From: an uncultured Verrucomicrobia subdivision 3 bacterium
GTDB taxonomy: Bacteria; Verrucomicrobiota; Verrucomicrobiia; Limisphaerales; UBA11358
DNA length: 46,979 bases
NCBI GenBank assembly: GCA_903944085.1
Contig: CAJAQO010000155.1
Span: 1 to 46,979, forward strand
Reading direction: 5' to 3'
Below, one piece after another: positions 9,457-37,646 of the stretch. The notes below the pieces were generated by a model. That model worked only from the letters and a program-made list of their open reading frames with translations. It was not told the DNA's origin and did not search any database. The translations under genes were made by a program, and so were the position numbers. Each line of letters begins with the position of its first letter. The stretch's first letter is position 1.

Positions 9457-10562
9457 AAAGTAAAATATTCATCGGAATCATGATCGTGGTCGTCGTCGCC
9501 GGCGCGCTGGCGGTGGTGAAGGCGTTGCAGATCAAGACGCTGATCGCCTCGGCGGCGCTGTTTGCTCCGCCGCCGGAAACCATTTCGTCCGCCGTGGTGC
9601 GCGAGGAAAAATGGCCGGACACCATTCCCGCCGTCGGTTCGGTGAACGCGGCGCAGGGCGTGACGGTCGCGCCGGAAATCGCCGGCACGGTCAGCGAAAT
9701 CGCCTTTGAATCCGGGGCCACCGTGAAACAGGGCGATTTGCTGGTGCGACTTGACACCGCTTCGGAAAAAGCGCAGTTGGCGGCGGCCGCCGCGCAGGTG
9801 CAACTGGCGCAACTCAATCTGGACCGCACCAAGAAATTGCGCGCGGACAACACCGTTTCGCAGGCGGAACTGGACCAGGCTGACGCGACGTTGCAACAAA
9901 ATCAGGCGAACGCCGACACCATCCGCGCCGCCATTGAAAAGAAAACCATCCGCGCCCCGTTTGCCGGCAAGCTCGGCATCCGGCTGGTGAATCTGGGCCA
10001 GCAACTGGACGTGGGCAAAGGTATCGTGTCGCTGCAATCGCTCTCGCCGCTGTTCGTGGATTTTTCGCTGCCGCAACAGGAACTGGCGCGGCTCCAGACG
10101 GGACTCAAGGTCACGGCGGTTTCCGACGCCTATCCGGATCAGGTTTTTGAAGGGGAGCTGACCGTGATCAGCCCGGATCTCGACGCCGTCACGCGCAGCG
10201 TCAAGTTGCGCGCAAAATTTGAGAACGCCGATGAGCGGCTGCGCGCCGGGATGTTTGTCCAAGCCTCCGTGATTTTGCCCGAAGCCCGGCCGGTGCTCGC
10301 CATTCCGTCCACGGCCATTTTGAGCGCGCCGTCCGGCGACTCGGTTTTTGTCATCACCGGCACGACGAACCTGGTGGTGCAGCAAAAATTGATCCGCGCG
10401 GGCCGCGCGCACGGCGATTTTACCAGTGTGGAAACCGGCTTGAAAGCGGGCGACCGCGTGGTGGCCGACGGCATTTTCAAACTGCGCAATGGCATGGGTG
10501 TGCTGGAAAACAACGACACCACGCCGAAGCCGTCGTTAACTCCCAATCCGCCGAACAGCTAA
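9453..10562 (+). CDS. RND efflux periplasmic adaptor (membrane fusion protein)
   Basis: 369-residue adaptor linking the RND pump to an outer-membrane channel. An N-terminal membrane anchor (about 4-22) lacks a lipobox Cys. Then come the lipoyl half VAPEIAGTVSEIAFESGATV with KQGDLLVRLD, a short alpha-helical hairpin with AELDQADATLQQNQANADT, the second lipoyl half TIRAPFAGKLGIRLVNLGQQ, and the beta-barrel and membrane-proximal domains (ERLRAGMFVQASVILPEA). Starts at the ATG overlapping the tetR stop and lies 9 bases before the pump gene. The MexE/AcrA-like family is clear, but substrates are unknown. Confidence 0.93.
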   Translation: MKSKIFIGIMIVVVVAGALAVVKALQIKTLIASAALFAPPPETISSAVVREEKWPDTIPAVGSVNAAQGVTVAPEIAGTVSEIAFESGATVKQGDLLVRLDTASEKAQLAAAAAQVQLAQLNLDRTKKLRADNTVSQAELDQADATLQQNQANADTIRAAIEKKTIRAPFAGKLGIRLVNLGQQLDVGKGIVSLQSLSPLFVDFSLPQQELARLQTGLKVTAVSDAYPDQVFEGELTVISPDLDAVTRSVKLRAKFENADERLRAGMFVQASVILPEARPVLAIPSTAILSAPSGDSVFVITGTTNLVVQQKLIRAGRAHGDFTSVETGLKAGDRVVADGIFKLRNGMGVLENNDTTPKPSLTPNPPNS

Positions 10563-10571
10563 ACCGCGCGC

Positions 10572-13500: not shown

Positions 13501-13685
13501 TCACGCTGGTCACCGGCGCGGGCGCGGCGGCGCGCAATTCCATCGGCATCGTGCTGGTCAGCGGCATGAGCATCGGCACGCTGTTCACGTTGCTCGTGGT
13601 GCCGTCCATTTACATTTTAATCGCGAAAGATCACGGCGGCGAAGCCTCAAACGCAATCGGGGAAATGAAACCAGCCCATGAATGA
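10572..13685 (+). CDS. RND multidrug efflux pump, HAE1 (AcrB-like) family
   Basis: 1037-residue proton-driven trimeric inner-membrane pump, normal length. N terminus FTDLFIRRPVLATVVSLIIL is the classic first membrane helix. The proton-relay Asp pair of TM4 is at 402-403 (GLVVDDAIVIVENVERH), and the TM10 Lys is in LISKNGILIVEFANQL. Two large periplasmic loops separate the membrane blocks, and the duplicated 6+6 TM plan is intact. It follows its adaptor by 9 bases and overlaps the emrA-like gene by 8. No TolC-type outer-membrane channel gene is in the window, so the channel must be supplied from elsewhere. Confidence 0.95.
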   Translation: MKSFTDLFIRRPVLATVVSLIILIAGLQAIRSLNVRQYPHSENATVTVTTVYVGASADLVRGFVTEPLERAIAAADGIDYMESASKLGLSTITVHLRLNYDSKKALGEISSKVDQVRNDLPPEAEIPTLTIATADSQFASAYLSFTSDILEANQITDYLVRVVQPRLTALEGVQKADVLGGRTFAMRLWLKPDRLAAFNVSPNEVRVALAANNFLSAVGRTKGSLIQVNLTANTDLRSVNEFQNLVVRRNGDQLVRLSDVADVVLGAEDYDSEVRFSGERAVFMGIWALPNANSLDVIKEVRKEIAAIQKDLPTGLTARIAYDATQYIADALHEVVKTLVMTLIIVSVVIFLFLGSFRSVLIPLVAIPLSLIGAVFLMQVLGFTLNLLTLLAIVLAVGLVVDDAIVIVENVERHVREGKKPIDAALLGARELIGPVIAMTITLAAVYAPIAFQGGLTGSLFREFAMTLAGAVFISGIVALTLSPVMASRLLNHDREDHGLAGRINRDFDRLKNFYGRVLDWTLARRPMIYTVWIGLSLLTIPMFKMAWQAKEPAPTEDQGVIFGVVETPPDATIDQTSFYADVAGRAFAKVPEREQVFQLTMPDSGFGGLVLKPWGERKRTVFQITPEVQAMVNKIPGIRMFMVTPPPLPTGGENFPLNLVLSATAEPAEILRFAQALQIKCATNGMFAFPPQIDTKVDQPEVELVIDRDKVATLGLDMQTVGSDLAALVGGNYVNRFNLSGRSYKVIPQIERAARLNAGQLENTYVKGPANQLIPVSTFAQLVKHTTPRALNRFQQLNSVKLSGVAIVPLDTALKFLEAECAKTLPSGYKLDYTGDSRFLRTEGDKFLPAFALAVVLIILVLAAQFNSFRDPFIIILGSVPLAIFGALIFCFWKFPNPNIPFWTNGWTTSVNIYSEVGLITLVGLISKNGILIVEFANQLQRRGRTKTQAIRESAMLRLRPVLMTTVATIAGNFPLTLVTGAGAAARNSIGIVLVSGMSIGTLFTLLVVPSIYILIAKDHGGEASNAIGEMKPAHE

Positions 13686-14910
13686 GACCTCATCGCCCGC
13701 GCCATCCTTGCCAGCAATAAAAGCCGAAGCCAGCGGTTCGGCCCGATTCAATGCGCCGAAATTTCTCTGGCCGGCGGGCCTCGCGCTCGTGGTGGTGCTG
13801 TATTTTGGCATCGCATATCTTGTGGAGGTATTCACGCGCGAATCCACCGACGACGCCTTCATCGCCGGCCATGTGGTTTCCATCGCGCCGCGAATTGCCG
13901 GCCAAGTCGCAGCCGTTCACGTTTTGGACAACCAGATGGTGCGCTCGAACGACTTGCTCGTCGAAATTGATCCGGCGGACTACGCCATGACCGTCGCGCA
14001 AAAAGAATCGGCGGCGGACGCGCAGCAGGCCAGCTACAAAACCATGTTCGCCGCCTGGCAGTTGATGCAGGCCAAAGTCACCACCGCCGAGGCCGATGTG
14101 CGCAAAACGCAGGCGGACGCTGATTCCGCCGAAGCCACCGCCAAAAAAACGCAGGCCGATTTCGAGCGCGCCCAGGATTTGCTGAAACAAAAAACGGTTT
14201 CGCAGCAGGAATTTGACGCCACTCAGGCCGCCAACACCAAGGCGCAGGCCGATTTGAAATCAGCCCAGGAAAATGTCGCGGAAGCAAATTCCAGGGTGGA
14301 TGAAGCGAACCGCACGCTGGCCGCCGCGTGGGCGCAGGTCGGCACCGTGCTGGCGCAATGGCAGGAGGCGCAGACGAACATCGCCGCCGCCAAAATCAAT
14401 TTGGCCTACGCGAAACTTTTCGCGCCCGCCAACGGCCGCGTCACGCGCAAGGCCGTGGAAGCCGGCGATTATCTGCAAACCGGCCAGCAAATCATGTCCA
14501 TCGTGCCGGAAGAAGTCTGGGTGGTGGCGAACTTCAAGGAATCGCAGTTGAAAAACATGCGACCCGGCCAGTCGGTGACGGTGGAAATTGACGCGCTCGG
14601 CGGCCAGGCCTTTGCCGCGCATGTGGACAGCGTGCAGGCCGGCAGCGGCGCGCAATTCAGTTTGCTGCCGCCGGAAAATGCCACCGGCAATTTCGTGAAA
14701 GTCATCCAGCGCGTGCCGGTGAAAATTGTTTTCAACGAAGCGCTGCCCGCCGACCACGTCATCGGCCCCGGCCTGTCCGTGACGCCGAGCGTGCAGGTGA
14801 GCAACTTTGTTTTGCCGGCATGGGCGATTGCGCTCATCGCCCTCATCATTGCCGGCCCGTCGGTGCTGGGTTTTGTTTTTGTCACGCGGCGGAATACCGG
14901 CGATAAATAA
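13678..14910 (+). CDS. emrA: EmrA-like HlyD-family adaptor for an MFS pump
   Basis: 410-residue periplasmic adaptor. One N-terminal membrane helix (about 27-46), then the EmrA signature STDDAFIAGHVVSIAPRIAG, a lipoyl half, a long alpha-helical hairpin rich in Ala, Gln and Lys (about 100-235), the second lipoyl half AKLFAPANGRVTRKAVEAGD, and a beta-barrel domain. It overlaps the RND pump gene by 8 bases and precedes the EmrB-like pump by 6, so it is co-transcribed with both. A hydrophobic segment near the C terminus (about 380-403) is unusual for EmrA, which normally has only the N-terminal helix. Confidence 0.9.
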   Translation: MNETSSPAPSLPAIKAEASGSARFNAPKFLWPAGLALVVVLYFGIAYLVEVFTRESTDDAFIAGHVVSIAPRIAGQVAAVHVLDNQMVRSNDLLVEIDPADYAMTVAQKESAADAQQASYKTMFAAWQLMQAKVTTAEADVRKTQADADSAEATAKKTQADFERAQDLLKQKTVSQQEFDATQAANTKAQADLKSAQENVAEANSRVDEANRTLAAAWAQVGTVLAQWQEAQTNIAAAKINLAYAKLFAPANGRVTRKAVEAGDYLQTGQQIMSIVPEEVWVVANFKESQLKNMRPGQSVTVEIDALGGQAFAAHVDSVQAGSGAQFSLLPPENATGNFVKVIQRVPVKIVFNEALPADHVIGPGLSVTPSVQVSNFVLPAWAIALIALIIAGPSVLGFVFVTRRNTGDK

Positions 14911-14916
14911 TTTTCC

Positions 14917-16488
14917 ATGGCCGACGCGCCGCAACAAGTCTGGCATCCGCGCCACAATCCGTGGGTCATCACGCTCACGGTGATGCTGGCGGTGTTCATG
15001 GAAGTGCTGGACACATCCATCGCCAACATCGCGCTGCCGCACATCGCGGGCGGGCTGTCGGCCACGCCCGAGGAGGCGACGTGGGTGCTGACGAGCTATC
15101 TCGTCGCGAACGCCATCGTCCTGCCGATGACCGGCTGGCTCGGAAATTATTTCGGCCGCAAACGCGTTTTGCTTTCGTGCATCGTGATGTTCACGTTTGC
15201 GTCGGCATTGTGCGGGCTGGCGTGGGATTTGCCGACGCTGGTGATCGCGCGGATTTTGCAGGGTTTTGGCGGCGGTGCGATGGTGCCGATCGCGCAGTCC
15301 ATCATGCTGGAAAGTTTCCCGCCGCAAAAACGCGGCGTGGCGATGGCGGTGTTCGCGCAGGGCGTGGTCGTGGCGCCGATTCTCGGCCCGACGCTCGGCG
15401 GCTGGATCACGGACAGCTATTCGTGGCGCTGGATTTTTTACATCAACGTGCCGGTGGGAATTTTCGCGGTGCTGATGGCGAAATGGGTGGTCGAGGATCC
15501 GCCTTACATCAAGCGCAATATCCACGCGACGATTGACTATGTCGGCTTCGCGCTGCTCGCGGTGTGGCTGGGCACGATGCAAATTGTTTTGGACAAAGGC
15601 CAGGAGGCCGACTGGCTCGGCGCGGAATGGGTGCGCTGGTTCACGTTCACGTCGGTGGTTTCGTTTCTCGGTTTCATCTGGTGGGAATTTCAGACGGATC
15701 ATCCGCTCGTGGATCTGCACGTTTTCAAGAACCGCAATTTCACCATCGGCCTGATTCTGATGACGTCGCTGGCGGCGATTCTTTACGGCACCACGGCGCA
15801 ACTGCCGCTGTTCCTGCAAACGTTGATGGGCTATCCCGCGCTGCAAAGCGGCTACGCGATGAGCCCGCGCGGCGTGGCGGCATTCATCACCACGTTTTTT
15901 GTCGGGCGGCTCGTGGGAAAAATCCGCATGCGGTGGATGCTTTGCATCGGTTTTGTGACGCTGGCGTATTCGTCATTTCTGCTCGCCAACATCAATCTGC
16001 AAGTCGGCATGGGCAACGTGATCTGGCCCAGCCTCGTCAACGGCTTCGCCATCAGTTTTATTTTCGTGCCACTGACCACCACGACGATGAGCCAACTTGG
16101 CCAGGCGCAGATCGCTAACGCCAGCGGCCTTTACAATCTCATGCGCAATCTCGGCGGCAGCATCGGCATTGCGTTCGTCACCACCATGCTCGCGCGAGGC
16201 GCGCAATCGCATCAGGCATTGATGGTCGGGCATCTGACGCCGACCGACCCGGCATTCGCGCAGCGCCTGGCCGCCGCCAAAAACATGCTGGCGCAGCACA
16301 CCGATTCCGCGACCGCGACGCGGCAGGCTTACAGCGCCATGTATTCGCTGCTGGACCAGCAGGCGCACCTGTGGGCGTTCGTGGACAATTTCTTTTTATT
16401 CGGCGTGCTCGCGCTCGGCGGCATTCCGCTGATCTTTTTATTCAAGCGCGTGCAATACACCAAAAAGGCCGCCGCCACCGCGCATTGA
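14917..16488 (+). CDS. emrB: EmrB/QacA-type MFS drug transporter (DHA2, 14 TM)
   Basis: 523-residue proton antiporter. Motifs: VFMEVLDTSIANIALPHIAG in TM1 (motif D1), WVLTSYLVANAIVLPMTGWL in TM2, the motif A-like GNYFGRKRV loop, and motif C as VVVAPILGPTLGGWITDSY in TM5. Fourteen hydrophobic segments fit DHA2. It closes the operon tetR - RND adaptor - RND pump - emrA - emrB. Together with the EmrA-like protein it would export hydrophobic compounds across both membranes, again needing an outer-membrane channel not encoded here. Confidence 0.93.
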   Translation: MADAPQQVWHPRHNPWVITLTVMLAVFMEVLDTSIANIALPHIAGGLSATPEEATWVLTSYLVANAIVLPMTGWLGNYFGRKRVLLSCIVMFTFASALCGLAWDLPTLVIARILQGFGGGAMVPIAQSIMLESFPPQKRGVAMAVFAQGVVVAPILGPTLGGWITDSYSWRWIFYINVPVGIFAVLMAKWVVEDPPYIKRNIHATIDYVGFALLAVWLGTMQIVLDKGQEADWLGAEWVRWFTFTSVVSFLGFIWWEFQTDHPLVDLHVFKNRNFTIGLILMTSLAAILYGTTAQLPLFLQTLMGYPALQSGYAMSPRGVAAFITTFFVGRLVGKIRMRWMLCIGFVTLAYSSFLLANINLQVGMGNVIWPSLVNGFAISFIFVPLTTTTMSQLGQAQIANASGLYNLMRNLGGSIGIAFVTTMLARGAQSHQALMVGHLTPTDPAFAQRLAAAKNMLAQHTDSATATRQAYSAMYSLLDQQAHLWAFVDNFFLFGVLALGGIPLIFLFKRVQYTKKAAATAH

Positions 16489-23734: not shown

Positions 23735-24261
23735 AACAATTTTTAATTTTATTAGCCGTCTCCGCGATGGCCTTTGTCACTGGCTGCGAGGCCGGGCCGA
23801 CGAACAGCCCGGCCATCATCAATAATTCAACCAACTCCACCATGAAATATCCCCTGCAACGCACCGAGGCCGAATGGCGCAAAACTCTGACGCCCGAACA
23901 ATATCACGTCCTCCGCGAGGCCGGCACGGAACGGCCGTTCACCGGCAAATACTGGAACGCGCAGGAGCCGGGCGTTTACCGCTGCGCGGCGTGCGGCGAA
24001 ATTCTGTTCAAGTCGGACGCCAAATTTGACTCCGGCTGCGGCTGGCCGAGCTTCTCGGAAATCGCCGCGCAGGGAAAAGTCATCGCGCGCGAGGACAACA
24101 GCCTGGGCATGCACCGCACGGAGGTTTTGTGTGCCAATTGCGGCAGCCATCTCGGCCACGTTTTTGACGACGGCCCCGCGCCGACCGGTTTGCGTTACTG
24201 CATCAATTCCGCCGCGATTGATTTGCAATCCGACAGCCAGACAAACAAAATGGAAAAATAG
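23731..24261 (+). CDS. msrB: peptide-methionine (R)-S-oxide reductase, predicted lipoprotein
   Basis: Reduces methionine-R-sulfoxide in proteins. 176 residues. The ATG at 23731 overlaps the addB stop and starts a lipoprotein signal with lipobox FVTGC (Cys 19), so the enzyme is probably anchored in the cell envelope. A Ser/Asn/Thr-rich linker of about 30 residues precedes the MsrB domain, which has zinc cysteines in [11 protein letters not shown] and [16 protein letters not shown], the GCGWPSF motif, and the catalytic Cys in LRYCINSAA. Typical cytoplasmic MsrB is about 140 residues, so the extra length is the export signal and linker. Co-transcription with addB looks accidental in function. 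Confidence 0.92.
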
Positions 24262-24727
24262 TTCGGGGTGCTCATCCGACGGAACTGTTCGCGGCGAAGA
24301 GCTATTTTCCATCCGGCGAAAATGTGATCGCTCACGGCCGTTGGTCGTCGAGAATGGTGTCCAGCACTTCATAAGATTTTGCTCCACCGCGAACACCGTG
24401 CCACGGCGGTCGGTGCTGGCCGGCCGGATCAATCAAATTCAACTCGCCGACGGATTCCGAGGGGATGATTGCGCGCAAGACACGTCAATTTTTTGGCAGA
24501 GAATTGAATCTTTTGTCCAAAGAAGTTAATCTGCCCCCGGCGCATGACCCATTCCATCGCAAACAAGAAACCCGGCACGTCGGCCGGGGATGATGACACC
24601 GGCCTGACGGAAGACGTCGGCCAATTGCTAGATGAGTGAGGCGTTGCCGGCCTGAACGGCCGATGCCGCCGAACATTTTTTTATTCATGGTTCCAAGTCT
24701 TTCTACAGTAATATCCGCCGCGTCGTT
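24262..24727. other. 466-base gap without a supported gene
   Basis: Short open stretches occur in several frames, the longest on the minus strand across 24430-24660, but none has a convincing start, composition or family match. It may contain decayed coding sequence. No terminator hairpin is evident after msrB. Just upstream of the TIR gene, TAATAT (24709-24714) could be a -10 box 13 bases before the ATG, without a good -35. Confidence 0.4.
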
Positions 24728-27700
24728 ATGACCGAAAACGAATTTACCTATTGCGCATTCCTGAGCTACAGCCAGCAGGACAACTGCGAGCAACGCCCGG
24801 ACGCACCGGAGGCGCGCCACTTGTGCTGGGGCGATTGGCTGAACGATGAGCTCAAGGCTTTTTCAATTCCGGCGGTTTTTGCCGGACAAATCAATGCCCA
24901 CAGTGAAATCGTTCCGGAACGCATTGATCCGATTTTTCAGGACCAAACCGAGCAGCCCGAAAGCGCGAGCTTGAGCAAAAATGTGCGCCGGGCATTGGAG
25001 CAATCAAAATGCCTGATCGTGATCTGTTCGCCCCGTTCGGCCAAAAGTCTCCATGTGAATGAGGCGGTGCGTTATTTCAAGCAACTCGGGCGCGGCGGCC
25101 GGATTTTGCCCATCGTCATCGCCGGCGAACCCAATGCCACCGATGGTGCCAAGCCGGGCATGTCACCGGAGGCAGAATGTTTGGTTCCGGCGTTGCGTCA
25201 TCCCGTGAAGTCGGATGGAACGATTGATATTTCGCGAAGAGAGCGAGAATCCATTTTTGCGGATGCGCGGCAGGGTGAAGGCAAACAGGAAGTTCTGGCC
25301 CGCGATTACGAAAACGGGGAGATCGAGTTGGAAGCAGCGAAAATTCAATTGATCGCCGGCTTGCTCGGTTTGGGGTTCAATGGATTATGGGGGCACGAAA
25401 TCAAACGCCGTTTCGCCGCGGCACAAATTCTTGCCCGGGAAGCGCGCCAACAGGCTCCGGAAATTCAAAACGAAGTTTTGGAAGTCGAGAACCAGACGCG
25501 AGCAGCCGAGCAAATTCAGGAGCTTCGAAATCAAGCGCAGGCAGCGCAAGGCAAAATTCTCGAAGCCCAGCAGCAGGCGCGGGAAGCGCTTGGCCAAGTC
25601 GCGGAAGCGCGCAATCAAGCCCAAACCGCCGAAAGCAAAGTGGTGGAAGCGCAACAGCAGGCGCGGGAAGCCCAGAGCCAACTTGAAGCCGCCCGCAATC
25701 AAGTCCGCGAGGCGCAGACCAAATTTTTGGAAATTCAAAACCTGCCGCAAGACGTCAAAAGCCAGATTGAGGACGCTCAAAACAAAGCCCGCGAAGCGCA
25801 AGGCCAAATTGAGGAAGCGCGGGTTCAAGCTCAGCAGGCGCAAAGCGAAGCCGAGACGGCTCGCAATGAAGTCCGCGAGACCCAAGACAAATTTTTAGCC
25901 GCGCAGAACCAGGTTCGCGAAGCCCAAAGCCAGGTTCAGGAAATAGAAAGCAACGCGCGGCAAACTCAAAGCCAGCTCGCCGAGGCGCAAAATCAGGCTC
26001 AGGCGGCGGCCAGCAAAGTTCGGGAAGCGCAGCAGCAGGCGCGCGAGGCGCAGAACCAGGTTGCGGACGCCCGCAATCAAGTTCGCGACGCGCAGAATAA
26101 ACTTCAGGAAATTCAAAACGAGTCGCGCGATGCTCAGAGCCAAATTCAGGAAGCGCGGCGGAAAACCATGGCGGCGCGGCGGCTCATGAAAATTTTCGCG
26201 CTTCTGGCCGTGCTGGCGGCGCTGGCGGCGAGCATCGCCTTCTGGCAACGCAAGGTTGCCAATGAAGCGTTCGCCAAAGCTGCATCAGCCGAAGTCAGCG
26301 AACCGGATTTGACCGGCGGCACGCTCAATCAAGAACGGATCAAGCAGGCGTTGCTGAAAAAGAGCGGAGCCGGACAAACGGAAGCGCTATCTGGGTTGGA
26401 TGAACTGGCGGCGCGGATTCCGTCGGCGGAAATTCCTGAAACCATGCAGGCGGCGGCGGTCATCTTGAATGATCCGCAACGCAGTCATTTTCAGGAACAG
26501 TTGCTCGGCGATTGGGTAAAAACGAATGCGCCTGCGGCCTTCGACTGGAGTTGCCAATTGACCAACGCTGATTTCCGGCAGCGTGCGCTGGAGCTAATCA
26601 TTCCGGCCTTGGCCGCTGACAATCTTACCAACACGCTGGCCCGGTTGAACGCTTTGAAACCAGCGCCCGGTGAACCGACTTACACGCAGCTTTTTCAACA
26701 CTGGGCGGGAAAAGATCCAGTTCAGGCAATTGAACAGCGACAACAGATTCCCGGCCAGGATGCGGATGCCAGGATTTTTTCCGCCATCCTGACGGTCTGG
26801 GCGGATCAACAACCCGCGGCGGCTTTGAACTGGCTGGAATCCCGGCCGGACGCAGAAGCGTTTCCCGCCGGGACTCGGCGCAACACGATGATTGCCGACT
26901 TGTTCGACGGCTGGGCCGCCAAAGATTTGGAAGCCGCCACGCTTGCCTGCCAGCAATTGCCTGCCAGCACGGCCAAAGAAAAAGCGTGGGAATGCGTCTT
27001 GAGCCGGCGGATTGTGAAAGCTCCCGCCTCGGCGGCGGAGTTGGTCAAAAATCTTCCGCCGGGCGACTACCGTCAAAAAGCCATTGTTGAATTGTGCAAT
27101 CACTGGGTTGGCACCAACGCCCCGGCGGTTTTGGATTGGGCACAAACTTTGCCATCCGAAGCGGAGCGCGTTGCCGTCACCAACCGAGTCGTCGTCAACT
27201 GGGCGCGCAGTGATGCGCAGACCGCCGCGCAGTTTGCCAATCAGCATCCTGAATTGTCCGGCGCGGTGTTCGGTGAAATTGCCAGCGCGTGGTTCCAACG
27301 TGATTTCGCCGCCACCACGAATTGGGTCGCCAGCCTGCCAGATGGCAAGAAAAAAAATGCGGCTTTGCTGGCCTGGGTGGAAACCTGGGCGCAGAGCGAT
27401 CCGAAAGGCATGATCATGTATGCGCTCGGTTTGCCTGCGAGCGAGGTCCAGACGCGATACCTGTCCGCAGCTTGCCGTGAAATGGCCGTTCATGATTTGC
27501 CAGGCACGGTGGAGTTGCTGCAACCATTATCCGATGCAGCGTTGCGGCAAAATATTTTGGAACAGGCCGCTCGCAGTTGCGATCTGCCGCACATGAAGCA
27601 GGCGGCGAAATATATTGCGGCCATGCCAGTGAGCGACGACCAGAAAGCAGCCATTCAGGGCTTGGTTTCAACTTGGGCGCCAGCCGATCCGGAACCAGCC

Positions 27701-28057
27701 GTCAACTGGCTGGTTTCTTTTCCGGCAACCAATGCTCAACCAGAACTGGTGCAGTCCGTCATCAAGACTTGGTCGCAACCCGAACCGTCGGTGGTGGCCA
27801 AATGGCTGGCGAATTTGCCGGCGGGAACTGTCAGCGAAGGGATGATCAGTGCGTTTCTCGATGGTGCCATGGTGAAATATCCTGACTACGCGGCGCAGTG
27901 GAGCCAATCTGTTGCCGATGAAACCCAGCGGCAGAAATATCAGATTCAGATTGCCCGGCAATGGATGAAAACCGATTCGTCGGCCGCGACCAAATGGATT
28001 GACAGCCTAAGTTTGCCGGACGAAGTCAAGCAATCGCTGAAAGCCCCAGCGCCATAG
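24728..28057 (+). CDS. TIR - coiled coil - membrane helix - helical-repeat receptor-like protein
   Basis: 1109 residues. Residues about 5-135 form a TIR domain: strand A YCAFLSYSQQD, helix DWLNDELKAF, and KCLIVICSPRSAKSLHVNEA with Glu 112 at the position of the catalytic Glu of TIR NADases. Residues 261-477 are 31 heptads of coiled coil without interruption. One membrane helix spans about 488-506, preceded by RRKTMAARRLMK, which places the N terminus inside. Residues about 590-1105 contain some 16 repeats of about 32 residues with the pattern W-x3-D-P-x-A-A-x2-W-x3-L-P, probably a helical solenoid in the periplasm. Nothing at the N terminus looks like a signal peptide. Bacterial TIR proteins often cleave NAD in defence, but the neighbours (msrB, smc) show no defence partner. 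Function unknown; sensing at the envelope is an inference. Confidence 0.85.
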   Translation: MTENEFTYCAFLSYSQQDNCEQRPDAPEARHLCWGDWLNDELKAFSIPAVFAGQINAHSEIVPERIDPIFQDQTEQPESASLSKNVRRALEQSKCLIVICSPRSAKSLHVNEAVRYFKQLGRGGRILPIVIAGEPNATDGAKPGMSPEAECLVPALRHPVKSDGTIDISRRERESIFADARQGEGKQEVLARDYENGEIELEAAKIQLIAGLLGLGFNGLWGHEIKRRFAAAQILAREARQQAPEIQNEVLEVENQTRAAEQIQELRNQAQAAQGKILEAQQQAREALGQVAEARNQAQTAESKVVEAQQQAREAQSQLEAARNQVREAQTKFLEIQNLPQDVKSQIEDAQNKAREAQGQIEEARVQAQQAQSEAETARNEVRETQDKFLAAQNQVREAQSQVQEIESNARQTQSQLAEAQNQAQAAASKVREAQQQAREAQNQVADARNQVRDAQNKLQEIQNESRDAQSQIQEARRKTMAARRLMKIFALLAVLAALAASIAFWQRKVANEAFAKAASAEVSEPDLTGGTLNQERIKQALLKKSGAGQTEALSGLDELAARIPSAEIPETMQAAAVILNDPQRSHFQEQLLGDWVKTNAPAAFDWSCQLTNADFRQRALELIIPALAADNLTNTLARLNALKPAPGEPTYTQLFQHWAGKDPVQAIEQRQQIPGQDADARIFSAILTVWADQQPAAALNWLESRPDAEAFPAGTRRNTMIADLFDGWAAKDLEAATLACQQLPASTAKEKAWECVLSRRIVKAPASAAELVKNLPPGDYRQKAIVELCNHWVGTNAPAVLDWAQTLPSEAERVAVTNRVVVNWARSDAQTAAQFANQHPELSGAVFGEIASAWFQRDFAATTNWVASLPDGKKKNAALLAWVETWAQSDPKGMIMYALGLPASEVQTRYLSAACREMAVHDLPGTVELLQPLSDAALRQNILEQAARSCDLPHMKQAAKYIAAMPVSDDQKAAIQGLVSTWAPADPEPAVNWLVSFPATNAQPELVQSVIKTWSQPEPSVVAKWLANLPAGTVSEGMISAFLDGAMVKYPDYAAQWSQSVADETQRQKYQIQIARQWMKTDSSAATKWIDSLSLPDEVKQSLKAPAP
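25508..26158 (+). repeat. 21-bp coding repeats (31 heptads) in the TIR gene
   Basis: Each unit encodes a heptad of the type N-Q-V-R-E-A-Q, for example QQAREAQ, NQVREAQ, SKVREAQ, NKLQEIQ. The phase holds from residue 261 to 477 with no skips. Modelled as a coiled coil at about 1.5 angstrom per residue, this is roughly 32 nm long. Confidence 0.9.
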
Positions 28058-28117: not shown

Positions 28118-31100
28118 TTAAGCCAGCACTGGCTCGGCAATTTGCGGCAGCAGCGGTTGCTCGTCGGCCTTGTGGAATTTCACGCTGACGATTTTGCTCA
28201 CGCCGTGTTCCTGCATCGTCACGCCGTAAAGCACATCCGCCATGCCGATCGTGCGCTTGTTGTGCGTAATGATGACAAACTGCGAATGCGCGATGAATCG
28301 TTGCAAAATTTTCACGAAGCGGATGACGTTGGACTCGTCCAGCGGCGCATCCAATTCGTCCAGCACGCAGAATGGGCTGGGCTTCACTTGATAAATTGAG
28401 AAGAGCAGCGAGACGGCGACCATCGTCTGTTCACCGCCGGACAACAGCGAGATGCTCTGCAACTGTTTGCCCGGAGGCCGGGCGACGATCTCAATGCCGC
28501 TTTCCAAGACATCGGTGGTATCGGACAAAACGAGGTCCGCTTTGCCGCCACCAAAAACGTCCACGAACATCGCGCGGAAGTTGTCGCGAATTTTCTCGAA
28601 TGTCTCGATGAACATCTGGCGTGTCTGGTCATTGATGCGATTGATGATTTCGAGTAATTGGGTTTTGGCATTCACCAGATCGTCGTGCTGGGTCGAGAGA
28701 AACTGATAGCGCTGCTCGGTCTCTTCGTATTCCTCGATGGCCACGAGATTCACCGCGCCCATGTCATCAATCTTCTGCTGCAACGCTTCGACCTGCTGCT
28801 GCACCGAGTTCCAATCGGTCGCCGCACCGGCTTCGGCCAGCTGCTCGGGCGGCAGCGTCTCGACCTTCGCCGGACCTTCGTCGGCGTGCGTGATGGTGAG
28901 GCACTCGCTGTGGATGTCGTCGAGATTGAGATGATATTTCTGCTGCACTTTCTCGCGCAGGTTTTGGACGGTCATGTTTTTCTGCGCCAGTTCCACATCC
29001 AGCGCGCCGCGCGCGTTCTGGATTTCCGTCAACCGATTGCGCTGCGAACGCAACGCTTCGTCGCGCTGCGAAATTTCGCCGTCCTGCGCGTTCTTATGGC
29101 CGACCAACTCGGCGGTCTTCACGTTCACGCCCTCGCGTTCGATCTGAAGGCGCTCGATCTGGGATTGCGAATCTTGAATTTCCGCTTCGGCCTGCTCTTT
29201 GCGTGTGACGAACGAGGAACATTCATTGCGCCGGGCGTCCACCAATTGCCCCAACTCACTGATGCGATAACCCAGCGATGTCTGCTGCTGGCGAAATGAC
29301 GAAGCGAGTTGCTCGTCGGATGCGAGCGCAACTTTGCTCTCGGTCAACGCCGTGTTGGCGACATCGCGGGCGACGCGGAGTTCTTCCAACTCCCGCGTCA
29401 AGGCGACGACCTGTTCCTGCGTCGCCCGCTCACGGGCTTCCAATTCGTTCAGCCGCGCTGTCAGCGCCTCGCGCTTCTGAAAACCTTCCGCTTCCTGCGC
29501 AGCGAGACTTTCGACTTCAAACACCAGCGTGTCAATGCGCTGGTGCAAGAGACGATTGGAATTATTCAGCGCATTGAATTCACCTTCGCGCGTGGCGATG
29601 GCAACTTCCTGCCGGCGCAATTCCATCTGCGCCTGCTGCAGGCTGGCTTGCAATTCCGTCTGCTCACTCAACCGCGCGGTGCGCTTCTGGGTCGCCTCGG
29701 CGACGTGCCCGTGAAGTTCCGCCAGCTCCGTTTGCAACTCGGCGATCTGATTCTTGCGGCCAAGAATGGATGACGGGGCATGGCCATTACCACCGCCATT
29801 CAGATAACCGCCGGTGTAAATGCCGTGCCGATTCAGCAGTTCGCCGCCGAGCGTCACAAAGTCGCAGCCCGCATGACCATTCTGGAGCTGCGCCTTCGCG
29901 GTTTTCAAATCTGCCGCGATGAACGTGCGAACCAACAATGATTTCAGCAACGGTTCCACCACGGGCTCGGCTTGAATCACACTCAGCGCGTGAACGATCT
30001 GGCCCGACTGCAATTCAGTCACCGGACCGGAGGCTGGAGCCATCTCGCCCGTGAAGGCCAGTTGATTAGCGCCGCTGGATTGCTGCGACGACAACGCCGC
30101 GACGCTCGCACGACCGGATTTGTTCGCGCTCAAGTCCGCGAGAATTTCTTCCGCTGAGGACGCTTGTTCCGTGAGCACCAATTGAAGATTGTGCCCCAGC
30201 GCATTTTCCACCGCCGCGACAAATTGATCCGGCACCCGGATATGATCCGCAAGCGAACCGATAACCGAACGTGATTGACGGAGCGCGGCCAGTGCGCCGG
30301 CATCGAAGCCTTCATGCGAACCTTCCAATTGTTCGAGCAGTTGAAGGCGGGAACGTTTCTCCGCCTGCTGCTGCACAAAATGATCCTGCTCCACGGACGC
30401 CGCCTGCAACTCGGTGTGTAACTCGCGCAAGCGATTCTGGCGTTGCTCGACGGAACTGCGCGTGGTGACGACATTCGATTTTTCCACTTCGACGCTCGCG
30501 GTAAATTCCACCAGCCGCGCTTCCAGTCGGCAACGTTCTTCTTCCAACTGCATCTTCTCCACCGAAAGTTTTTCCAAGCGGACCGTGTGGTTCTGCTTTT
30601 GCAGTTCGAGCGCATTGAGTTCATTGCGGATGCGCGAGGAATCCTGCGCCGCCGCGAAGGCCGATGATTGCGCCTGGCGCAGCGATTCCTGGCGCTGGCG
30701 CAAACCTTCCTCGACTTCGCGGAGCGCATTCTGTTTGGTCTGCAAGGCCTCTTTATGCTGCGTCAACGCCGCTTCTGCCGTGGCCAGACTTTCGGTGACG
30801 ACCACCAGCTCGGCCTGCGCCGCGCGATGCCGCTCCTCCGTCTGCGCGATTTCTTCCAGCGCCTTCATGTTCTGCGATTCGATTTCGCGAATGCGCTCCT
30901 GATTGAAATGAATGCGGCTTTCGTGACGATTGATCTCCGACTTCAATTCCAGTCCGCGCTGCTGCTGCACCGCAACTTCGTGTTCGAGTTCGGACAACAA
31001 TGCCCGCAACCGCGAGATCTCATTTTCGAAACGTAGCACCTCACTTGATCCCGTCTCGATTTCGTTGCGCAAATTTTCCACCGCCGCCTGCCGCCCGGAG

Positions 31101-31840
31101 ATTTCCGCTTGCAGCACGTCGTATTGATGACGCACGAGCTGCGTTTCCAAATGTTGCAGCTCCGACGAAATTTGTTGGTAGCGCCGGGCCTTGGCCGCCT
31201 GCCGTTGCAGCGAACCAATCTGGCGTTTTACCTCTGCGATTGTGTCCGCGATGCGCAGCAGATTTTGCTCCGTGTATTCCAACTTCCGCAGCGATTCTTT
31301 TTTTTGCGATTTGAATTTCGTGATGCCAGCCGCTTCCTCGAAAATCATCCGGCGGTCTTCCGGCTTGCTGGACAGAATCTGCGTGATGTGGCCTTGCGCC
31401 AGAATGCTGTAACTCGTGCGCCCCACGCCCGTGCCCATGAACAACTGCTGGATGTCCTTTAACCGGCAAGCTGTGCGGTTGAGAAAATATTCGCTGCCCC
31501 CATCACGGTAAATCCGGCGCGTCAGCGTCACTTCGTCGTAAGCGACTTCCACGCCCGCCGCCTTCAGACTTTCCGCGCCGATGCCTCCGAGCGTGAGCGA
31601 AACTTCGCACAGGCCCATCGGCTTGCGGCCGTCGGTGCCATTAAAAATCACATCGGCCATTTCGCCACCGCGCAGTGCCTTGGCCGATTGCTCACCCAGC
31701 ACCCAGCGAATGGCGTCCGAGACATTAGATTTGCCGCAGCCATTCGGCCCGACAATGGCCGTAACGCCGGGCTGAAAGTTCAGCGCCGTCTTGTCCGCAA
31801 AGGACTTGAAACCGAAAACTGTTAGATTCTTGAGATACAT
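28118..31840 (-). CDS. smc: chromosome partition protein SMC
   Basis: 1240-residue condensin ATPase that organises and segregates the chromosome with ScpAB. ATG at 31840 ([18 protein letters not shown]) is chosen over an upstream in-frame start, as it gives the invariant SMC N terminus. Walker A GPNGCGKS at 31-38, followed by [20 protein letters not shown]. Long coiled-coil arms flank a hinge (about 500-660, with [19 protein letters not shown]). The C-terminal head has the signature [20 protein letters not shown] and Walker [20 protein letters not shown]. It converges with the TIR gene, 60 bases apart, with no obvious terminator hairpin. scpA and scpB are not in the window. Confidence 0.96.
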
Positions 31841-31873
31841 CGAATGACAAGTGCTAGGCAACCAAAGCTGTTA

Positions 31874-32351: not shown

Positions 32352-35300
32352 TTAATTCCCGTTCCACATCAAACGGTAATAGGCGTTGGGCGCAGGTGCC
32401 GCGTTGTCGTTGAACTGGAACACCCCGCCCGCCGGGGCATTGGTGATCAAGACATCGGCCCAAGTGCTCAGATTCGTGGAAACCTGCACGTGATATTTAT
32501 AGCCAAGAATGCCGGCAAAACTCATGCTCGCCACCCCGTTGGTGAAAGCGATGCCGCTGATCTGGCCGCCCAACCCGCTGGAACTGCCCGCCGTCAGCGT
32601 GATCGTTCCGGTGTTCGTCCCGCCAAAGCCATCCGTCACCGTGTAACTGAACTGGTCGTCCACCAGGTTCGGATTTGAATACGTCACATACGCGGGCGAA
32701 TTCGTCGTGATGACCAGCGTGATGCCGTTGGTGCTGGTGCCCAGGCCGACCACGGTCAAGGTATCATTGTCCGCATCGGTGGCATTGGCCAGCAGGTCGC
32801 TAAGAAGAATTTTCCAAGTATTCAATCCGTTTCGCAGATAGGTGGGGTTGTTCGCCACCGGCGGATGGTTGGCGGTGATTTCCATGATGCCGAGATAGGC
32901 ATAACCGCTGGCCAAACTGGACACAGAGAGCTGCACCTGGTTGTTCGTATCCGGAATGATGCCATTGACGCTGATGATATTGTTGTTATTTCCGTAGTAA
33001 TTGGTTCCGTTGTTGGTCCAGCTATTATTACCGGTGGTTTGAAGCACATTGGTGAACGGCCCATTGCCGCCGGTCACCACATACTGCGTAATCCGGGTGG
33101 TGGCGGAATCATTGCGGGTGCCAAATAAACGGAGCCGGTAAACGGCGGTCGGATCAAGGTTGGTCAGCGCCACTATTCCCGTCGCATTGAGACTGAAGAT
33201 GTAATCCTCGGTGGCATTAGTGACGGCAAAATTGCCGAGCAGCGCGTAACTGGGCGAGAGCAAGCCGCCGTTCGCGATGCCGTTCGCCATAAAATTGCTG
33301 TTGATGACCAGTCCCACCGCCGTGGCAATATTGTTCGTCGTGATGAGATTGGCCAGGCCGCTGCCGTTGATGACAAACGTTCCGCCACCGCCGGGGGCAT
33401 ACATGTTGTTCCAGTATTGTCCCAGATAGTCCGGGTTGGACACAAAGTTTCCATTGCTGTCGTCATTGGGGCCGAAATCAATCAGGAGATCCTGATGGGT
33501 GTCGGCGGCGTATTTGGCGGCATTGGAATAGGTGCTGCGCAGGCCGCTTTCGAGAGCCGCCACGCGATACTCATAGGTGATGCCCGTCGGCAGACCCGTG
33601 TTGGTAAAAGCAATGGACCCGGCCGGCAGGATGGCTAGGTCGCTCCAGTTTTGCCCAGCGTTCGCGAGACGGCGTTCCACCACAAAACCCGTTTCAGTGG
33701 TGCTGTTCCGGATCCAGTTCAAAACCACCGTGGCTCCCGGCCGGCCTTGAACCGTCAAATTGCTCGGCGGCGACACGTCCTGCACGGCGCTAAAATTGGC
33801 GGAGTTGATCATCGCCACGGCGAGGCTTTGCGCGTGGTTGGTGGCCGGGCTGCCGGAAGTGAAGGCGGCGTCATCCAGCATCGCGCCGATATCCAAGCTG
33901 GCCTGCTGGAAACCGCCCTGCATCTGCGCCACGGCCTCGCCCTGGTTCCAAGCCGAGCGATAGACGCACCAGTTTTGAAAGTCCACCACCGCCGGCGTGG
34001 CCGGCCGGCCGGACGCTCCCGCCGGTCCGCCCAACGTGAACTGGTCCGGAACATATTGCTCCGACAAATTACCCGTCAGATTCCCGTCCACGATCAACGC
34101 GGTATTGGTCAGCGCATAACGATATATGAGCGCGACATCATGCCAGTCCCCGTTGGTGGCGTTGACGGAAATGGCGAGCTGCTGTCCGTTCGTCGAGACA
34201 TAGACCAGTTGGCCGGAGCGGATTTCCAGCGTGGCATAATTGGTGCCGGAGCGCACCGCCGCGATGGTGCCGCTGTTGGTGGAGCGCACACGGAAGGACA
34301 TAGTGAACGAGTGCAGCGGGCTGGCGGGCGTGAACGTCAGCGGCGCAGACACGTCGCCGTCCTGGGTCAGGCGGGCGAAACGGGTGACCGGCGCCGGTTG
34401 CGGACTATTGGTCTTGCCGGCGGCGAGGGCGTCAAAGAGCGTTGGCACAATGGTGTAAAACTCCTCCAAGTAGCCGAGGTTGTTGGGGTGGATAGTGTCG
34501 TAATTATAGCCGCTGATGTAATGCCCGGTCCCGTCATCCAACGCGCCAAGATAGTTGGCACTGGGCAAATTCCAACTATTGATCAGAAGGTTCACGTTTT
34601 TGACATACTGATATTCGCTCAACGAAAAGTTGTTGTTCGCGTAGCCGAGGCCGGTCACGGGATACAATCCGTTGCTGCGGCACATGGAAATGAGGGTCGC
34701 CAAGTTGGTGTCGAACGTAGTCACGATGGCAGCGGGATCCAGCGAGCCGGCCAGCCCCTCGTTGTAGAGTCCATAGCCAATCAAGACATAATTGGGCGTC
34801 AGCGGAGCGAGATCCGTGGCATAGCGAGACACACCGTTGCCCGTGGTCGTGCCGTCAATCGAAATGTTCGTCACCGCCCAACCTTCGGGCGCGAGGAAGG
34901 TGGTCAGCAAACCGGCGTAGCCGTTGGTGTAGGAACCATTGTTGAAAACGCTGGGACTGCTGCCGTAACCATGGGCGACCGAGGAGCCGAACACCACAAT
35001 GGACTTGGTTACGCTCACCGTTAGCGTGGACGTGGCGCTGTTGTAATCAGCCATATCCGTCGGGGTAAAGGTTACACTAACATTGGTTACACCCAGATTC
35101 GGCGCGATGGACGGGGTGGTGAAGGCGAAACTGCCGGCCACCGCCGCGTGACTAAAGCCGTTCGTAGCGGCACCCCCCATCAAGATCACACTGCCAAGAC
35201 TCTGGCCAACGGTAACGGGGCCAGCGGTCGGTCTGGTTAGGCTCGGCGTTGTCCTGCCCACCGCCACAGTCACCGTGGTCGTGGCGCTGTTATAGCTCGA

Positions 35301-37646
35301 ATTTGTCGGCGTGAAGGTCACGCTCACGTTCGTCGAACCGACCGCATTCGGTGCCAGTGAAAGCACAGTGAAAGCGAAACTGCCGCCCACCGCTGCGCCG
35401 CTCGCGGCATTCGTGGCCACCCCGCCGCTTAAACTGGAACTCGCCAGTGTCTGCCCGTAACTTATGGCCGCAGCGGTCGGCGGCGTCAAGATAGTGGGCG
35501 TAATGCCGTTCACCGCCACCGGCACAGTAGTCGTCGCGCTGTTGTAGTCGGCGGTATCCGTCGGCGTGAACATCACACTCACATTTGTGGTTCCTGCCGC
35601 GCTGGGTGCCAGCGAAGGCGTCGTGAACGCGAAACTGCCCGCCACCGATGCACTGCTCGCCGTATTCGTCGCCGCACCTCCGGTCAAAGTGGAATTCGCC
35701 AGTGTCTGCCCATAGTTGATGGTGCTGGCAGTCGGCGCGGCAAAGATTGTCGGTGTCACCTTGCCGATTAAAACGGTAACTGTGCCGCTGTTCGTCCCGC
35801 CGTAACTATCATTAACTGTGAAACTAAACTGGTCGGTCACGGTATTGGCCGGCACATAGATATAGTTACTGTCCTGCGTCAGCGTCGCGCCATTCGTGCT
35901 GCTGGCTAGGCTGAATGTCAATAGATCACCACTGGCATCCGCCGCGAGGCTGGCTTTGGCGATTTGCACCGGCAATCCCGTGACACGGGTCATGATGAGA
36001 TTAGTGGTCGTGGGCACCTGCTTTGTCTCCGTGATTTCCATGATGCCAAGATAGGCATAACCTCCAGCCGGACTGGTCAAAGCAACTTGAATCTGTTTGT
36101 TGGCATCCGGAATAATCCCGTTGACGATGATGATCGTATTATTATTCCCGTAGTAAGTAACCCCATTGTTAACCCAGCCATTGTTGCCCGAAGTTTGCAG
36201 GATGTTCGTGAGCGACCCGTTGCCACCGGTCACAACGTATTGCGTTGACCGGATGGTATTGCCATCCGTATTGCGCGTGCCAAACATTCGGAGCCGATAA
36301 ACCGCAGTGGGATCCAGGTTGGTGAGCGAGAGGCTGGCGCCGGCTGCAACGGTTGTGAAGATGTAATCCTCGGTGGCATTGGTGACCGCGAAATTGCCCA
36401 ACAGTGCGTAGCTAGGATTCAGCAGGCCGCCATTCACGATGCCATTAGCTTGAAAATTGCCATTGTTGATGACCAGTCCCAGCGCAGTGGCCAGGTTGTT
36501 CGTCGTGATAAGGTTAGCTAGACCGGAACCGGCAGCGAGATAGGTGGAACCGCCGCCCGGGGCGTTCATGTTGTTCCAGTATTGCCCCAAATAGTCCGGG
36601 CTAATCGTGTTGGTGCCGTTGGTCACATCATTCGGACCAAAATCAATCAGCGCATCCCGATGACCGGAGGTCACACCGGTGATGTTCACCGTCACGGTGC
36701 CGTTGTTAGTAAGTCCGTTGCCATCATCAATGGTATAAGTGAAGGTTTGAATCATGTTGGTGCCGGGCAGGGTTATGCTGGTTGCATTGGTCGTGGCACC
36801 AGCAGGCAAGGAACTGAAACTGTCAAAAATCAGCGTATCGCCATCTGGATCGGATGATTGGGCCAGCAGGCTCGCAGTGGAGATCGTAAGCGTGGCCCCC
36901 AAATTCCGGTTGGTGGTGACATTGCCGGCGATAGGCGGCCGGTTGACCGTGATTTCCATGAGGTTGATGTAGGAAAACGAACCCTGAAGGGTAGCGAATC
37001 CAAATTGAATCAGGTTGTTGGTGGTGGGCGCAAGCCGCGCAAGACTGGGAATCGTGTAGGTGAAGTTAGTGCCGGTCCCGCCAATGTTCCCGCCGGAAGT
37101 TTGGACATTGGTGGTGAACGTGCCATTGCCGCCAACTATGGTGAAACTAGTAACTCTTACTTCCCCGCCAACGCCCGTGTCACGGGTTCCAAACCAGCGC
37201 AAATTGTAATTATTGCCGGTCGTCAAGCCGGTGATGACGAGAGCATTGCTGCCGGTGCTGCTATTACCGTAAAAGAAAGTGCTGTAGGCGTTCAAGACCG
37301 AGAAATAGCCAAGGCGGTTCGTGTCAACCGACGTTGGTCCCACATTGTTCGCCGCCAAGGTGGAAACATTGACATTGGCCAACGCAATCGTGGTGGCGGT
37401 GTTGTTTGTCATAACGAGGTTGGTGAGGCCGACACTGGTGGTGAGTGAAGTCATATTATTCCAGTAGTGCCCGTAGGTGTCCGGGTTGGATACCAGATTG
37501 CCAGTCGTCGTAAAATTAATCAAAACGTCCTGATGAGCGGCAACGGCGAATTCAGGGCAACAGAGTGGGACGGCTGCAATCAGCCCGGGCCAGAGCATGA
37601 TTTTCACTTGTTGGATTTTCTCTTTGAGGGATCTCATCTTTTTCAT
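32352..37646 (-). CDS. 1764-residue exported mosaic protein with SGNH hydrolase domain
   Basis: Signal peptide 1-37, cut after AVAA. A domain of about 200 residues (starting HQDVLINF or HRDALIDF, with Y-W-N-N-M) occurs three times: 38-235, 329-540 and 1384-1592. Cadherin-like segments follow each (236-325, 541-630, 1593-1687). Three MBG-like immunoglobulin-type repeats lie at about 630-881 (PTIxxxPTAxxIxYGQTL). An SGNH hydrolase is at 883-1079 with catalytic Ser 888 or 889 (FGSSVAHGYG) and D-x-x-H at 1050-1053 (DTIHPNN). Then come a LamG-like domain (1088-1235), a fibronectin III domain (1291-1368) and a C-terminal module (YHVQVSTNLSTWADVL then YYRLMW) I associate with exported verrucomicrobial proteins. 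Likely a cell-surface or secreted esterase acting on polysaccharide (inference). Confidence 0.85.
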   Translation of the reverse strand: MKKMRSLKEKIQQVKIMLWPGLIAAVPLCCPEFAVAAHQDVLINFTTTGNLVSNPDTYGHYWNNMTSLTTSVGLTNLVMTNNTATTIALANVNVSTLAANNVGPTSVDTNRLGYFSVLNAYSTFFYGNSSTGSNALVITGLTTGNNYNLRWFGTRDTGVGGEVRVTSFTIVGGNGTFTTNVQTSGGNIGGTGTNFTYTIPSLARLAPTTNNLIQFGFATLQGSFSYINLMEITVNRPPIAGNVTTNRNLGATLTISTASLLAQSSDPDGDTLIFDSFSSLPAGATTNATSITLPGTNMIQTFTYTIDDGNGLTNNGTVTVNITGVTSGHRDALIDFGPNDVTNGTNTISPDYLGQYWNNMNAPGGGSTYLAAGSGLANLITTNNLATALGLVINNGNFQANGIVNGGLLNPSYALLGNFAVTNATEDYIFTTVAAGASLSLTNLDPTAVYRLRMFGTRNTDGNTIRSTQYVVTGGNGSLTNILQTSGNNGWVNNGVTYYGNNNTIIIVNGIIPDANKQIQVALTSPAGGYAYLGIMEITETKQVPTTTNLIMTRVTGLPVQIAKASLAADASGDLLTFSLASSTNGATLTQDSNYIYVPANTVTDQFSFTVNDSYGGTNSGTVTVLIGKVTPTIFAAPTASTINYGQTLANSTLTGGAATNTASSASVAGSFAFTTPSLAPSAAGTTNVSVMFTPTDTADYNSATTTVPVAVNGITPTILTPPTAAAISYGQTLASSSLSGGVATNAASGAAVGGSFAFTVLSLAPNAVGSTNVSVTFTPTNSSYNSATTTVTVAVGRTTPSLTRPTAGPVTVGQSLGSVILMGGAATNGFSHAAVAGSFAFTTPSIAPNLGVTNVSVTFTPTDMADYNSATSTLTVSVTKSIVVFGSSVAHGYGSSPSVFNNGSYTNGYAGLLTTFLAPEGWAVTNISIDGTTTGNGVSRYATDLAPLTPNYVLIGYGLYNEGLAGSLDPAAIVTTFDTNLATLISMCRSNGLYPVTGLGYANNNFSLSEYQYVKNVNLLINSWNLPSANYLGALDDGTGHYISGYNYDTIHPNNLGYLEEFYTIVPTLFDALAAGKTNSPQPAPVTRFARLTQDGDVSAPLTFTPASPLHSFTMSFRVRSTNSGTIAAVRSGTNYATLEIRSGQLVYVSTNGQQLAISVNATNGDWHDVALIYRYALTNTALIVDGNLTGNLSEQYVPDQFTLGGPAGASGRPATPAVVDFQNWCVYRSAWNQGEAVAQMQGGFQQASLDIGAMLDDAAFTSGSPATNHAQSLAVAMINSANFSAVQDVSPPSNLTVQGRPGATVVLNWIRNSTTETGFVVERRLANAGQNWSDLAILPAGSIAFTNTGLPTGITYEYRVAALESGLRSTYSNAAKYAADTHQDLLIDFGPNDDSNGNFVSNPDYLGQYWNNMYAPGGGGTFVINGSGLANLITTNNIATAVGLVINSNFMANGIANGGLLSPSYALLGNFAVTNATEDYIFSLNATGIVALTNLDPTAVYRLRLFGTRNDSATTRITQYVVTGGNGPFTNVLQTTGNNSWTNNGTNYYGNNNNIISVNGIIPDTNNQVQLSVSSLASGYAYLGIMEITANHPPVANNPTYLRNGLNTWKILLSDLLANATDADNDTLTVVGLGTSTNGITLVITTNSPAYVTYSNPNLVDDQFSYTVTDGFGGTNTGTITLTAGSSSGLGGQISGIAFTNGVASMSFAGILGYKYHVQVSTNLSTWADVLITNAPAGGVFQFNDNAAPAPNAYYRLMWNGN

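Follow-up and report, generated by a model that had tools for sequence, protein, structure and literature searches.

Results

A TIR membrane protein gene in a Limisphaerales genome

The window analysed here is the whole of contig CAJAQO010000155.1, 46,979 bases from an uncultured Verrucomicrobia subdivision 3 bacterium (assembly GCA_903944085.1). On its forward strand, at 24728..28057 (+), an open reading frame with an ATG start encodes a 1109-residue protein predicted to cross the membrane once. From the N-terminus, this protein comprises a TIR domain in which both catalytic residues of the motif for cleavage of nicotinamide adenine dinucleotide (NAD) are replaced, a long alanine-rich coiled coil, a basic segment, a single membrane helix and a C-terminal domain of helical repeats. 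The ATG at 24728 is supported by the relatives of the same clade, since all 20 that were aligned carry Met at this column. The gene is present as a single copy in its own genome (E <= 0.001; 5.79 Mb, 335 contigs). A scan of positions 24200 to 24800 for sigma-70 promoters found none (shuffle mean 0.6). The assemblies of the relatives named below are labelled Verrucomicrobia subdivision 3, Limisphaerales, Verrucomicrobiia or plain 'bacterium'.

A TIR domain without the catalytic pair

A TIR domain, already proposed in a first sequence-only reading of this DNA, is present in the protein and with its C-terminal helix occupies residues 1-227 (24728..25408, +). Pfam ThsB_TIR matches residues 75-133 above its cut-off (25.5 versus 21.2 bits), and TIR_2, which in the protein scan stays just below its cut-off of 28 bits (residues 69-134, 6.4e-6, 27.1 bits), passes it in a six-frame search of the genome with 32.2 bits. 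The relative L042 falls below both cut-offs (26.7 bits for TIR_2 and 15.6 for ThsB_TIR), therefore we consider the domain as real but divergent. Among the 22 genomes carrying a copy of the clade, TIR_2 reaches its cut-off in 15, misses it in six and has no match in G007. Sequence searches of the PDB gave no match with the window TIR alone and only a subunit of RNase P (E 0.33) with profile A1, and the broader profile A3 matched TIRs weakly (best E 8.5e-4). A low-confidence structural model of residues 1-227 has TIR structures at the head of its match lists: with Foldseek there was no match at E <= 0.001, the first nine rows being TIRs, and in VIA-align 2 the first 19 rows are TIR domains (Z 6.7-8.2), among them Roq1, SPARTA TIR-APAZ, a B. 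cereus TIR, RPP1, SpbK, SARM1, MyD88 and Hydra TRR-2. Because VIA-align 2 Z values below 8 are rated middling, the assignment rests on the profiles and on the alignments to clear TIRs (A1, A3).

In TIR domains that cleave NAD (NADases), the catalytic Glu is the last residue of a W-x-x-x-E motif, as stated in the motif description of PMC7075850. According to the same description, the residues of SARM1 that contact the ligand are this W and W+4 (W71 and E75 in the numbering of that paper), and W+2 (H73) faces the opposite side of the helix. In the window protein the corresponding segment reads H109-V110-N111-E112-A113 (25052..25066, +). When a profile of 16 relatives was aligned to the plant TIR L6 (3ozi) and to TLR2, their Glu fell on residue 113 and their Trp on residue 109, Glu 112 of the window protein being paired with a Met of L6. 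The window protein has no gap in the motif relative to the 15 other rows, among which L079 has a one-residue insertion before it. Glu 112, which the sequence-only reading had taken for the NADase Glu, is thus rejected as the catalytic residue: the earlier assignment was off by one, since the catalytic Glu aligns with residue 113, here an Ala.

The replacement is not peculiar to the window protein. Throughout the 23 rows of its clade, position 113 is A, V or T and position 109 is H, Q, R, A or P; these rows include L003, a fragment of another row, so that the loss of W109 together with E113 extends to all 22 distinct TIRs. Outside the clade, Glu 113 is found in all 17 rows of the genus and order searches that cover the motif and in 21 of the 22 alignable rows of the phylum search, where one further fragment, L158, ends short of the motif. 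Since both residues are lost, the window TIR is predicted to be incapable of the standard Glu-dependent NADase chemistry, and the earlier proposal of signalling by NAD cleavage through Glu 112 would not hold.

Two observations on the motif outside the clade should be mentioned. The exception in the phylum search, L148, is a divergent relative (E 4e-14) apparently without Glu at the catalytic position, a possible second loss. In G020, a genome of the same genus, three related genes (L064, L065 and L096) are clustered on contig C386, and at least two of them encode proteins of the TIR - membrane helix - WD40 type with Glu 113 but Tyr 109, possibly an intermediate state of the motif.

The gene is under purifying selection and is maintained. 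Ratios of nonsynonymous to synonymous substitution rates (dN/dS, Nei-Gojobori) are, in each of the 10 pairs, 0.14-0.27 for the TIR and 0.22-0.35 for the ectodomain; coil ratios are 0.13-0.34 in eight pairs and 0.53 in the pair L014-L015, with dS saturated in the window-L034 pair; the pairs are not independent, seven of the 10 sharing the window sequence, and the coil values are less reliable. A decaying pseudogene was rejected on account of dN/dS below 0.36 for both TIR and ectodomain in every pair. TIR identity to the window protein amounts to 58-78% (12 rows), compared with 38-74% for the membrane helix and ectodomain (10 rows, some partial). With such low TIR ratios, this domain looks like a maintained pseudo-enzyme.

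Coiled coil and membrane topology

Between the TIR and the membrane lies a coiled coil predicted to be cytoplasmic (residues 235-482; 25430..26173, +). The sequence-only reading had recognized it as a coil but had counted 217 residues, against 248 found here. Its heptad periodicity is strong (power at period 3.5 of 274, versus 75 at the 99.9% level of 2000 shuffles); of the 35 d-like positions 25 are Ala, and most a-like ones are Ala, Val, Ile or Leu. Matches of Alanine_zipper, tropomyosin and SMC coil families fall on this segment, all under their cut-offs. Membership in the SMC/Rad50/JetC proteins, which NCBIfam and PADLOC models raised, was rejected as these matches fall on the coil, those of NCBIfam being far under cut-off. 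Complete members of the clade have between 147 and 610 residues in the stretch that runs from residue 235 to the membrane helix. At the long extreme, L095 (genome G018, gene at 9501-13058) has a coil of ~610 residues, and its part from the membrane helix on is short, with 305 residues.

The coil is followed, as announced in the sequence-only reading, by a basic stretch recognized by sequence reading and charge count (residues 477-488; 26156..26191, +) and by a single membrane helix (residues 486-504; 26183..26239, +). The Kyte-Doolittle hydropathy of the helix is 2.36; the next best segment, which is the last helix of the TIR region, scores 1.32. The flanks of the membrane helix carry +5/-1 charges on the N side and +3/-1 on the C side, predicting an N-in/C-out orientation. 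A membrane segment (Kyte-Doolittle >= 1.86) occurs in 21 of 22 clade members, the G035 copy being cut by a contig end, and in 19 of these 21 Arg and Lys are more numerous in the N flank than in the C flank. A second membrane helix at about residues 199-221, which would place both ends on the same side, was rejected: at 1.32 it is the last helix of the TIR model, itself poor, and it also aligns with the pre-membrane linker of the sister proteins. The analysis thus supports, by prediction, a single-pass protein with the TIR inside and the repeat domain outside, the arrangement given earlier and that of Toll-like receptors, in which one membrane helix also leaves the TIR in the cytoplasm.

A predicted helical repeat ectodomain, with repeats shared by stand-alone proteins

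The C-terminal part is predicted to form a periplasmic alpha-solenoid of ~33-residue repeats (residues 535-1109; 26330..28054, +). The model of residues 483-1109 is all helical, with a mean pLDDT of 85.5. Twelve stretches of the ectodomain match a profile of the ~33-residue repeat with E < 0.001, and none in the coil or TIR has E < 0.2; this profile was built from 32 repeats of stand-alone homologues, near-duplicates included, and E is given for one sequence. The regular helical repeats of the sequence-only reading are therefore retained, over ~570 residues instead of about 500. The best structural matches are solenoids of PPR and HEAT type (Z up to 11.0, rmsd 15 A); relatedness to PPR proteins, CAND1, SF3B or karyopherins was rejected, the large root mean square deviation indicating a common arrangement only. 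No Pfam repeat family, LRR included, matches the window protein.

The same repeat (W-A-x-x-D-P ... L-P) is found in a family of stand-alone, apparently exported solenoid proteins from this order (L017, L018, L020-L026 and L028; frames of 738-873 codons), with up to 32% identity to the window protein over ~420 residues. Unlike the window protein, they have no TIR or coil, and their repeats follow one hydrophobic segment near the N-terminus, seen in 10 of 10 fetched (Kyte-Doolittle >= 1.89; next best <= 1.33). The N side of this segment is more basic in three of the 10, equal in six and reversed in one. These flank charges being uninformative, it is the N-terminal location of the segment that argues for an outside ectodomain. 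In L022, the one member scanned, Pfam ELYS is over cut-off across 77 residues (35.4 versus 28.8 bits), probably as a helical solenoid.

Two size classes are seen when the C-terminal part is measured from the beginning of the membrane helix onward. Seven complete clade members have 618-713 residues; the shorter class, with 224-335 residues, comprises 12 complete members belonging to a subclade of 14 rows (support 81/59). Copies that are cut (G061, G029 and G035) do not enter these counts.

Relatives in the genus, the order and the phylum

In a maximum-likelihood tree of 39 different TIRs, whose midpoint root serves for drawing only, the 22 Glu-less TIRs stand on one side of a single branch (length 0.79, support 100/100). 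Three long-branched rows make the deeper part of the tree unsure. The next rows are L064 (93/83) and L065 (97/96), the two Glu-bearing proteins of G020, whose membrane helix directly follows the TIR and is itself followed by WD40 repeats, identified by Pfam for L064 and by inspection for L065. The lost catalytic pair, the inserted cytoplasmic coil and the replaced ectodomain all map to the same branch, in whatever order they came about. Most likely, the window type arose once, inside one genus, from an ancestor of the Glu-bearing TIR - membrane helix - WD40-type repeat kind.

Within the genus, profile A1 matched in 23 of 49 genomes: 22 carry a single Glu-less copy, and G020 carries the WD40 type. 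Of 146 genomes drawn evenly from the order, 16 have a match; three are Glu-less, all of this genus, and the 13 others belong to other genera, with E 2.7e-50 or weaker. From the phylum, 288 genomes were drawn and 15 match, the window genome among them; 13 of the 14 others have at least one match with Glu 113, the 14th being G340, which carries L148. All these are lower bounds, because many genomes had only part of their first-look candidates scored. Among the genomes drawn, the Glu-less clade was seen only in one genus.

The search for this architecture across Verrucomicrobiota, suggested in the sequence-only reading, also qualifies the claim made there that a membrane receptor with repeats on the outside is unusual. 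In most phylum matches, hydropathy, motif counts and inspection by eye place a membrane segment a short way past the TIR; what comes next is WD40-like, TPR-like or of another kind. Membrane TIRs with a downstream repeat domain thus recur in the phylum, and the layout in itself is not unique. In a literature search limited to open-licence papers, neither a protein such as that of the window nor this architecture of the phylum was found described. These Verrucomicrobiota proteins (L064, L065, L066, L068, L070, L136, L142, L143 and others), of which the same-genus L064 and L065 are the nearest relatives, share with the window protein a homologous TIR, one membrane helix after it and a C-terminal repeat domain. 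They differ from it in retaining Glu 113 and, mostly, Trp 109, in having their membrane helix right after the TIR with any coil after the helix, and in carrying a WD40, TPR-like or other ectodomain instead of this solenoid (the WD40 call comes from Pfam in L064 and L068 and from inspection or motif counts in the rest). What is unusual here is the coupled change, in which the catalytic pair was lost, a cytoplasmic coil inserted and the ectodomain exchanged.

Neighbouring genes and other TIRs

Upstream of the gene, Pfam identifies an AddB-like nuclease-helicase and a SelR/MsrB protein. Downstream, a convergent SMC gene (28118-31861, -) lies 60 bases away, then a 1764-residue protein (32352-37646, -) with GDSL lipase and Big_9/cadherin-like matches over cut-off and weaker laminin G and fn3 ones. 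Further off in the window, an efflux-type cluster (9453-16488, +) aligns HlyD-type, AcrB-type, HlyD-type and MFS genes in a row. Neighbours were compared, by clustering rather than naming them, in 16 fetched regions and the window. Two were left out, G015 because a longer overlapping frame masks its copy and G020 because it holds the WD40 sisters. This leaves 15 loci, several of them truncated where a contig ends. An SMC gene is near the TIR gene in four of the 15 loci, convergent in G000, G062 and G021 and co-directional in G068; besides the SMC gene of the window, this observation concerns L088, L084 and L090. No ThsA (SIR2-SLOG) was found among the direct neighbours, nor SIR2 in ten further open reading frames of the window (three without family).

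Other TIR matches, searched with three Pfam models, occur in eight of the 22 carriers, the window genome included; the one in G068 is only an 89-codon frame. In the window genome the other match lies on contig C57 and has a W-x-x-x-E segment, read by eye. None was seen in the remaining 14 carriers, which is not proof of absence as these genomes are incomplete assemblies. Given the eight carriers with another match, a TIR partner is possible but does not look obligatory.

Discussion

Taken together, these properties echo those of Toll-like receptors, to which the sequence-only reading had compared the layout. Like the animal receptors, the window protein is predicted to be single-pass, with a cytoplasmic TIR and an external repeat solenoid. 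The comparison fails for the order of the domains: animal receptors have N-terminal leucine-rich repeats and a C-terminal TIR, whereas the window protein has the opposite order and orientation and an all-helical ectodomain. Toll-like receptors are also not known to have a long coil between membrane and TIR. In the profile alignment TLR2 keeps the W and E of the motif that the window protein has lost. The TLR2 account in PMC9153377 reports that NADase activity was not found for the mammalian protein.

Resemblances to bacterial TIR proteins are partial. The resemblance to Thoeris ThsB lies in the ThsB_TIR match; according to the ThsB results in PMC10022894, ThsB requires its catalytic Glu (E85), whereas the window protein has Ala at this position and its direct neighbours are not ThsA-like. 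In the classification of Toshchakov and Neuwald (2020), the section on bacterial TIR group 6 describes large proteins, often with an N-terminal TIR and C-terminal TPR repeats (PMC7075850); they are however mainly actinobacterial, and that section makes no mention of membrane anchoring.

Our favoured reading, in which we place about even confidence, is that the window protein is an envelope receptor or signalling scaffold acting by TIR assembly and not by NAD cleavage. The protein would sit in the inner membrane with its N-terminus in the cytoplasm, and its outer alpha-solenoid would bind a protein or another ligand in the periplasm. Binding may cluster the protein or shift its membrane helix; the change would then be relayed to the TIR by the alanine coiled coil, whose full extension would measure ~37 nm (248 residues with a rise of 0.15 nm each). 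As the standard Glu-dependent chemistry is predicted to be closed to the Glu-less TIR, this domain would act as an assembly or docking surface for a cytoplasmic partner, in the mode of animal Toll-like receptor TIRs rather than that of ThsB or SARM1. As PMC9153377 puts it in its treatment of such domains, other TIRs without Glu or without detectable NADase activity still need TIR-TIR association in order to function.

Several observations weigh against this reading. The AlphaFold2 model of residues 1-227 is of low confidence (pLDDT 48.5, pTM 0.52, from an alignment of 13 sequences), and the GTPases BipA and elongation factor 2 enter the VIA-align 2 list after row 19 (Z 6.1-6.7). Two of 21 clade members have flank charges without N-in bias, reversed in G007 and equal in G027. 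A specific receptor would have to tolerate both C-terminal size classes, and no neighbour other than SMC recurs in more than two of the 15 loci, leaving no constant partner gene. Finally, Glu 112 is variable in the sisters and present in all 23 clade rows; it may have some role, which speaks against an entirely dead pocket, and an unconventional chemistry is conceivable.

Other explanations were weighed. The protein could be a structural scaffold or spatial organiser of the envelope: its solenoid would keep envelope proteins in place, its coil would serve as a spacer and its TIR fold only for docking, with no signalling involved. The lost catalytic pair, the regular coil of such different lengths among complete members, the two ectodomain sizes and the missing constant neighbour are all compatible with it. 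On the other hand, the TIR is the most conserved part of the protein, and the layout of the Glu-bearing sisters resembles that of a sensor. We hold this explanation as unlikely, though to be taken seriously. Improbable, in our opinion, is a decoy or brake, in which the Glu-less TIR would bind and restrain catalytic TIRs of the same cell: eight carriers do have at least one other TIR match, but the 14 others showed none. Least probable of all is a NADase receptor working through Glu 112 or another residue. The invariance of Glu 112 in the clade and the normal Glu 113 of relatives with similar layout could be invoked for it. Against it stand the alignment, where no indel intervenes and 113 rather than 112 is paired with the catalytic Glu of solved TIRs, the additional loss of the partner Trp and the geometry of SARM1, where W+2 lies on the helix side opposite to the ligand-binding W and W+4 (motif description of PMC7075850).

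If the assembly reading is correct, a further step may be considered, which we put forward only tentatively: a bacterial lineage may have independently evolved signalling of the Toll-like receptor type, purely by assembly across the envelope, through a membrane receptor whose TIR no longer acts as an enzyme, with the pair lost, the coil inserted and the ectodomain exchanged on one branch in one genus. Bacterial TIR domains have been studied mostly as NAD-cleaving enzymes, and animal Toll-like receptors are thought to have moved the TIR from enzyme to assembly module. A Glu-less membrane TIR, conserved and selected, next to Glu-bearing sisters of the same genus would offer a natural before-and-after pair for this passage from enzyme to assembly module.

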